From Embleya hyalina (GTDB taxonomy: Bacteria > Actinomycetota > Actinomycetes > Streptomycetales > Streptomycetaceae), in NCBI RefSeq assembly GCF_003967355.1, contig NZ_BIFH01000019.1, forward strand, positions 62,001-126,000: a stretch of DNA of 64,000 bases, given 5' to 3'. Both the position numbers and the translations under genes were made by a program. Under the pieces are notes generated by a model. It was given only the letters and a program-made list of their open reading frames with translations, was not told where the DNA came from and made no database searches. Position 1 is the first letter of the stretch, and each line of letters opens with the position of its first letter. Shown here one piece after another: positions 21,299 to 21,427 of the stretch.

Positions 21299-21427
21299 AT
21301 GTCCTACCGCCAGCCGACACCGACACCGACACCGACACCGACGGCGATCCGGCGTCCTCGTCCGCCACGACCGTCCTCCCCGTCCTCCCCGTCCGGCAGG
21401 GCCGACGCGGGGACGAGGCGCCGATGA
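21299..21427 (+). CDS. 42-residue leader ORF upstream of vanK
   Basis: An ATG sits at the position in the vanK promoter block that aligns with the vanH start codon. The ORF encodes MSYRQP followed by TP repeats, then arginine-, proline- and serine-rich sequence ending in RRR. Its first codons resemble the VanH N-terminus MSHRDP. Its TGA overlaps the vanK ATG (ATGA), suggesting coupled translation. A (GACACC)-type repeat makes up part of it. It could be a leader peptide, the remnant of a lost gene such as vanJ, or a vanK 5' extension made by mis-set starts. Evidence is by sequence only. Confidence 0.45.
   Translation: MSYRQPTPTPTPTPTAIRRPRPPRPSSPSSPSGRADAGTRRR

Follow-up and report, generated by a model that had tools for sequence, protein, structure and literature searches.

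The short open reading frame before vanK in Embleya hyalina is probably a VanR-activated leaderless ORF that loads ribosomes, is coupled to vanK and is evolutionarily interchangeable with an in-frame N-terminal extension of VanK. We give this reading a probability of about 0.73. The ORF lies in a stretch of 64,000 nucleotides, here called the window (contig NZ_BIFH01000019.1, positions 62,001 to 126,000, assembly GCF_003967355.1), and the reading accounts for a puzzling short leader in a vancomycin-resistance cluster. The kind of ORF is already known from mycobacteria (Shell et al. 2015). What is new is that one module is used repeatedly near vanK and in the van regulon, and that it alternates between fused and coupled states. 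The related genomes offer a natural series of one start region in three states, direct, fused and coupled, and with this series one can test directly for what reason coupled leaderless ORFs exist and how genes are recruited into a leaderless regulon.

The leader is surrounded by vanS, vanR, vanK, vanH, vanA and vanX. VanK is a FemAB-family protein of 384 aa (21424 to 22578, plus strand; Pfam FemAB 154.4 bits, cutoff 24), and vanR is divergent from it (20517 to 21212, minus strand; NF033118 vanR-O 449.6 bits, curated cut-off 505). The models of VanX and of the general D-Ala-D-Lac ligase exceed their curated cut-offs, whereas those of VanH, VanR and VanS score high but stay under theirs. The 42-codon ORF that the earlier note had described before vanK is present at 21299 to 21427 on the plus strand (translation MSYRQPTPTPTPTPTAIRRPRPPRPSSPSSPSGRADAGTRRR) in the +1 frame with respect to vanK, whose ATG at 21424 shares the tetramer ATGA (21424 to 21427) with the TGA of the ORF. 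A GAGG resembling a Shine–Dalgarno (SD) element stands upstream of the vanK ATG at 21415 to 21418, with a predicted duplex with the 16S tail of −5.9 kcal/mol. Codons 6 to 15 (21314 to 21343, plus strand) form a CCG-ACA repeat that encodes PT repeats and belongs to a start region of low predicted structure, in which the first 40 nt fold with −1.7 kcal/mol.

The presumably leaderless ATG of this ORF lies 51 nt past the core (TATCGAAAAGCGCATAC, from 21248) of a VanR-type block at 21237 to 21264 on the plus strand. The block has TATCG repeats 11 nt apart, agrees with 45 of the 51 consensus positions, has been profiled over 80 vanK loci, and is a putative VanR binding site. A −10-like hexamer, TTCACT (consensus TTGACT), occupies −12 to −7 from the ATG (21287 to 21292, plus strand), and the vanK, vanH and MurF-like profiles all show CTTGACT at this distance. 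A second copy of the unit of block and start codon precedes vanH (22630 to 22692, plus strand), with 43 of 51 consensus positions and its ATG at 52 nt. The two are the best consensus matches on both strands of the window, the next best reaching 28 of 51. The likeness that the earlier note had seen between them holds: counted from TATCGAAA (21248 before vanK, 22641 before vanH), 38 of 47 positions agree. The vanR and vanS genes adjoin the cassette, and in this organism VanR would bind and activate at the block.

Block and start codon belong together well beyond the window. At a score of at least 35 of 51, a start codon lies 51 or 52 nt past the block in 182 of 183 block matches before all kinds of genes in 99 loci. 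The unit recurs before vanH and before genes that we take, from sequence features, to be MurF-, VanJ- and VanY-like. We call it the VanR-regulated leaderless cassette of actinobacterial van clusters, a grouping defined in this analysis by a block followed by a start codon at 51 to 52 nt, and the window has both. The promoter-plus-start cassette proposed in the earlier note is therefore real as a unit, but the recent duplication between vanH and vanK implied there is not supported, since the copies are about as similar within as between genomes. In the 46 genomes with both cassettes, identity over codons 1 to 13 was 0.532 within and 0.526 between genomes, and 464 of 2000 permutations were as high; for the block it was 0.642 and 0.610 (137 of 2000 permutations). 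Among 26 non-redundant genomes the values for codons 1 to 13 were 0.510 within and 0.513 between, and recent duplication or gene conversion likewise finds no support. The two cassettes of one locus, L046, look nearly identical.

Relatives of vanK were collected by whole-genome searches of 199 and 394 genomes and by a scan of titled genome records, from which the best 80 of 388 relatives were kept, so that the sample leans towards relatives of the vanK in the window. The titled loci include no S. coelicolor record. From 123 loci, 18 duplicates, 24 with a block score below 30 of 51 (highest 28) and one without VanK anchor were removed, and none was removed for a missing start codon, which left 80 distinct loci. 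The later of the two whole-genome searches, that of 394 genomes, found 31 matching genomes, one of which (G315) yielded no locus, and contributed five further distinct loci.

Each of the 80 loci, selected for a block score of at least 30 of 51, has an ATG or GTG at 51 or 52 nt. This codon is the in-frame start of vanK itself in 62 loci; it opens a fused N-terminal extension in 53, often beginning MSYSEPARTA..., and starts VanK directly in nine. In 17 loci, the window among them, it lies in the +1 frame. These counts speak against the stub of a lost gene that the earlier note had considered, because the codon at that place is vanK's own start in most relatives. The one remaining locus, L033 (block at 4785), has the sole vanK leader outside the +1 frame, which stops after 25 codons and fits neither frame nor overlap; its PVSRTAHHRG stretch, like that after coupled junctions, stays in the vanK frame. 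In the closest congener, L002, VanK is 93% identical and fused. Its extension, MSSRQPKRTAVRRPRPSRP..., resembles the MSYRQPTPTP...AIRRPRPPRP of the window, and 18 nt of the repeat stretch at 21314 to 21343 are missing from it in a pairwise alignment whose second half is not meaningful because the L002 slice extends beyond the junction.

Among the 17 +1-frame loci, the leader stop overlaps a vanK start as RTGA in 14 (12 GTGA and 2 ATGA), and in the other three (L060, L081 and L101) a vanK GTG begins 7 to 10 nt ahead of the point where the stop codon ends. As a null, the +1 frame was read in place in 51 of the 53 fused loci, two being excluded by a minimum-length rule. RTGA arose in 22% (0.216) of these readings, which gives 14 of 17 a p of 1.6e-7, a value that ignores relatedness. 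Two of the five loci from the later search, L111 and L112, are in the +1 frame and both have RTGA. Of the 18 out-of-frame loci, 17 are in the +1 frame (p 7e-5, again ignoring relatedness); 85% of readings of the remaining frame run without a stop to 60 nt past the VanK anchor, which could account for this bias. On the VanK tree, 14 changes, many of them on weak branches, are required to explain which loci are in frame and which are not, and the +1 label needs at least five changes on well-supported branches. The mean SD-like duplex of the 17 out-of-frame loci is −6.4 kcal/mol, against −2.1 kcal/mol elsewhere in the same stretches, where the controls lie inside the leader; the pairing is weak in L003, L046 and L081. 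Both the recurrence of RTGA at the junction and the SD-like sequence favour the coupling of vanK to its leader that the earlier note had raised. That note had also let its case depend on conservation of the ORF in relatives, and here the outcome is mixed: conservation is lacking for the peptide, and in L002 the leader does not exist as a separate ORF, but the start position, the frame and the stop/start overlap recur.

The first codons are kept at the nucleotide level, with A-ending codons that are otherwise rare: over 70 fused or +1 loci, the third base is A in 42% of vanK codons 7 to 12 but in 4% of those in the VanK core, and folding is weaker over the first 40 nt (−5.2 kcal/mol) than in the core (−15.2 kcal/mol). 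From codon 11 on, the GC3 pooled over 17 leaders is 0.93, like that of the VanK core, and the third position is the most GC-rich in 15 of them; the leader in the window (0.62/0.94/0.75) lacks this coding signature. No purifying selection on the peptide was seen among the six leaders compared, the window excluded, where differences by codon position beyond the first codons were 0.242/0.273/0.202 as against 0.100/0.104/0.186 in the VanK core. To judge from these comparisons, the leader peptide drifts, and the cassette, the A-rich first codons, the frame and RTGA persist. A conserved leader peptide was rejected as unsupported, the differences being about equal at all codon positions. An amino-acid-sensing attenuator leader was set aside as well, for the same lack of purifying selection in six leaders and because the 17 leader peptides, compared by eye, share no run of regulatory codons. 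The leader gave no Pfam match at E up to 1, and its predicted RNA fold is not unusual (z 0.04).

We propose the following course of events. VanR would activate the promoter, and the transcript would begin on the ATG at 21299 or beside it, giving an mRNA without 5' UTR. First codons rich in A and C and with little structure would help ribosomes to load at the 5' ATG, and the short ORF that they then translate would be one of largely indifferent sequence. Termination at the TGA of ATGA would be followed by re-initiation at the vanK ATG that overlaps it, with the GAGG element aiding. The short ORF would be the same element that is fused in frame to VanK in most relatives, and loss of frame would be tolerated provided that the start frame terminates at a vanK start or shortly past it. 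That the transcript starts at the leader's RTG is suggested by S. coelicolor vanK and by the spacing of 51 to 52 nt; translation of the leader is suggested indirectly by the pooled GC3, which the leader in the window does not share, and re-initiation at vanK is inferred.

The leaderless S. coelicolor vanK, vanH and vanR are reportedly to be credited to Hong et al. 2004. All three stand among the documented leaderless genes in Table 1 of PMC3160421, where the vanK sequence (CCTTGACTGGGGGCATG) is of the same type before the ATG as that of the window; the available excerpt of that paper mentions no coupled leader. An excerpt on the S. coelicolor transcriptome counts against the leaderless reading, as leaderless transcripts are under-represented among the genes raised by all three glycopeptides (PMC7947799), in a passage silent on the start of vanK. 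The small ORFs that Shell et al. (2015; PMC4633059) described from mycobacterial data are leaderless and RTGA-coupled, and the leader in the window is like them in lying at the mRNA 5' end (here by homology), in its RTGA (the ATGA at 21424, shared with the downstream gene), in its relative frame, in its length (42 codons, within the 5 to 50 of that class) and in keeping the coupled linkage while the peptide changes. Unlike those ORFs, as far as the excerpt of that paper goes, the type found here is a single regulated module that recurs in front of several genes near vanK, with translation presumed, and that alternates between two forms, an N-terminal extension in frame and a coupled ORF of its own. 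A review excerpt states that leaderless translation benefits from CA repeats following the start, and cites Canestrari et al. for the attenuation of mycobacterial genes by short leaderless ORFs of the polycysteine type (PMC9031893). The latter have in common with the window a leaderless short ORF upstream of a gene; the vanK leaders show no shared regulatory-codon run or conserved peptide. MIRU insertions at start codons, according to an excerpt of the review PMC12548453, likewise add an ORF that is coupled to the resident start by a −4 nt overlap. Unlike MIRU, the vanK cassette carries a promoter, and we saw no evidence of a mobile element at vanK. Among the open-licence papers listed by literature searches, none was recognised as reporting a coupled vanK leader.

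The leader might instead be translated incidentally or not at all, with ordinary SD-led initiation at 21424, and be what remains of the start of an earlier in-frame extension, with a functionless overlap. The SD-like element before the vanK start, the lack of peptide conservation in the set compared, the fused state of the nearest congener and the missing GC3 signature of the leader in the window all fit this explanation. Against it stands the frequency of RTGA among out-of-frame vanK and MurF-like cases (14 of 17 and 11 of 11), well above the in-place null for vanK. The vanK start region in the window is also predicted to be mostly paired (unpaired 0.17), though this is common in GC-rich RNA. 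We regard an incidental leader as unlikely.

A frameshift inside the leader could yield a fused VanK with N-terminal extension as in relatives, so that ATGA would not be the main start. In all 17 +1-frame loci no stop interrupts the vanK frame over the length of the leader, whereas four of the 17 have one in the third frame; in the window, GC content is highest (0.94) at the codon position that counts as third when the vanK frame is read. Yet the N-terminal extension is dispensable, as its absence in nine of 80 loci shows, the pooled GC3 of the 17 leaders marks the leader frame, and a frameshift leaves the excess of RTGA unexplained; we consider it very improbable. Short repeats in the stretch and the in-frame congener could also point to a sequencing or assembly indel, with vanK truly fused. 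This is hardly credible: the first 24 nt of vanK in the window match those of L036 at 20 positions, which makes a private error unlikely, and a similar junction in the same frame occurs in eight +1-frame loci (L031, L034, L036, L039, L059, L077, L111 and L112).

The leaderless, coupled ORF would not be restricted to vanK. Among the MurF-like genes near vanK that lie behind the cassette, RTGA stands at the MurF-like start in 11 of 11 out-of-frame cases, with leaders of 7 to 58 codons (L003, L011, L031, L033, L036, L047, L058, L069, L077, L085 and L090, all on the minus strand). A further 12 with the block are read in frame, four of which lack an extension, and 34 other MurF-like matches have no block. 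Before vanH the cassette is in frame in all 46 rows with both block and vanH, a count in which the window appears twice (as WIN and L001) and which leaves aside 3 rows without block and 26 without vanH in reach. Tentatively, and at somewhat less than even odds, we suggest that the VanR boxes of actinobacteria are a complete start module of activator site, promoter, leaderless ATG and A/C-rich ribosome-loading ramp, which takes over genes with a start of their own by in-frame fusion or by the +1 frame and an RTGA hand-over. If true, the hand-over would let a leaderless regulon recruit SD-type genes such as vanK and the MurF-like gene with their proteins unchanged, and would let N-terminal extensions come and go. 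The automatic start annotation of vanK, vanH and MurF-like genes in these clusters merits checking.

The vanH gene (22693 to 23733, plus strand; best four vanH models 514 to 559 bits, each under its curated cut-off) begins with a stretch of 29 codons before the conserved core (22693 to 22779; MSHRDPIRTE...), and block-bearing relatives have a similar stretch of 8 to 29 codons. An overlap is also seen between the ORFs of vanH and vanA, at 23726 to 23733 in the window (GTGGCTGA), and overlap coupling may occur elsewhere in the van cluster. Cassette ORFs of 64, 21 and 56 codons in L018 (minus strand), L019 (minus strand) and L071 (at 3465), respectively, have an MSRT/MPRT-type start and not MSYSEP, and that of L018 overlaps the start of a VanJ-like frame by 11 nt.
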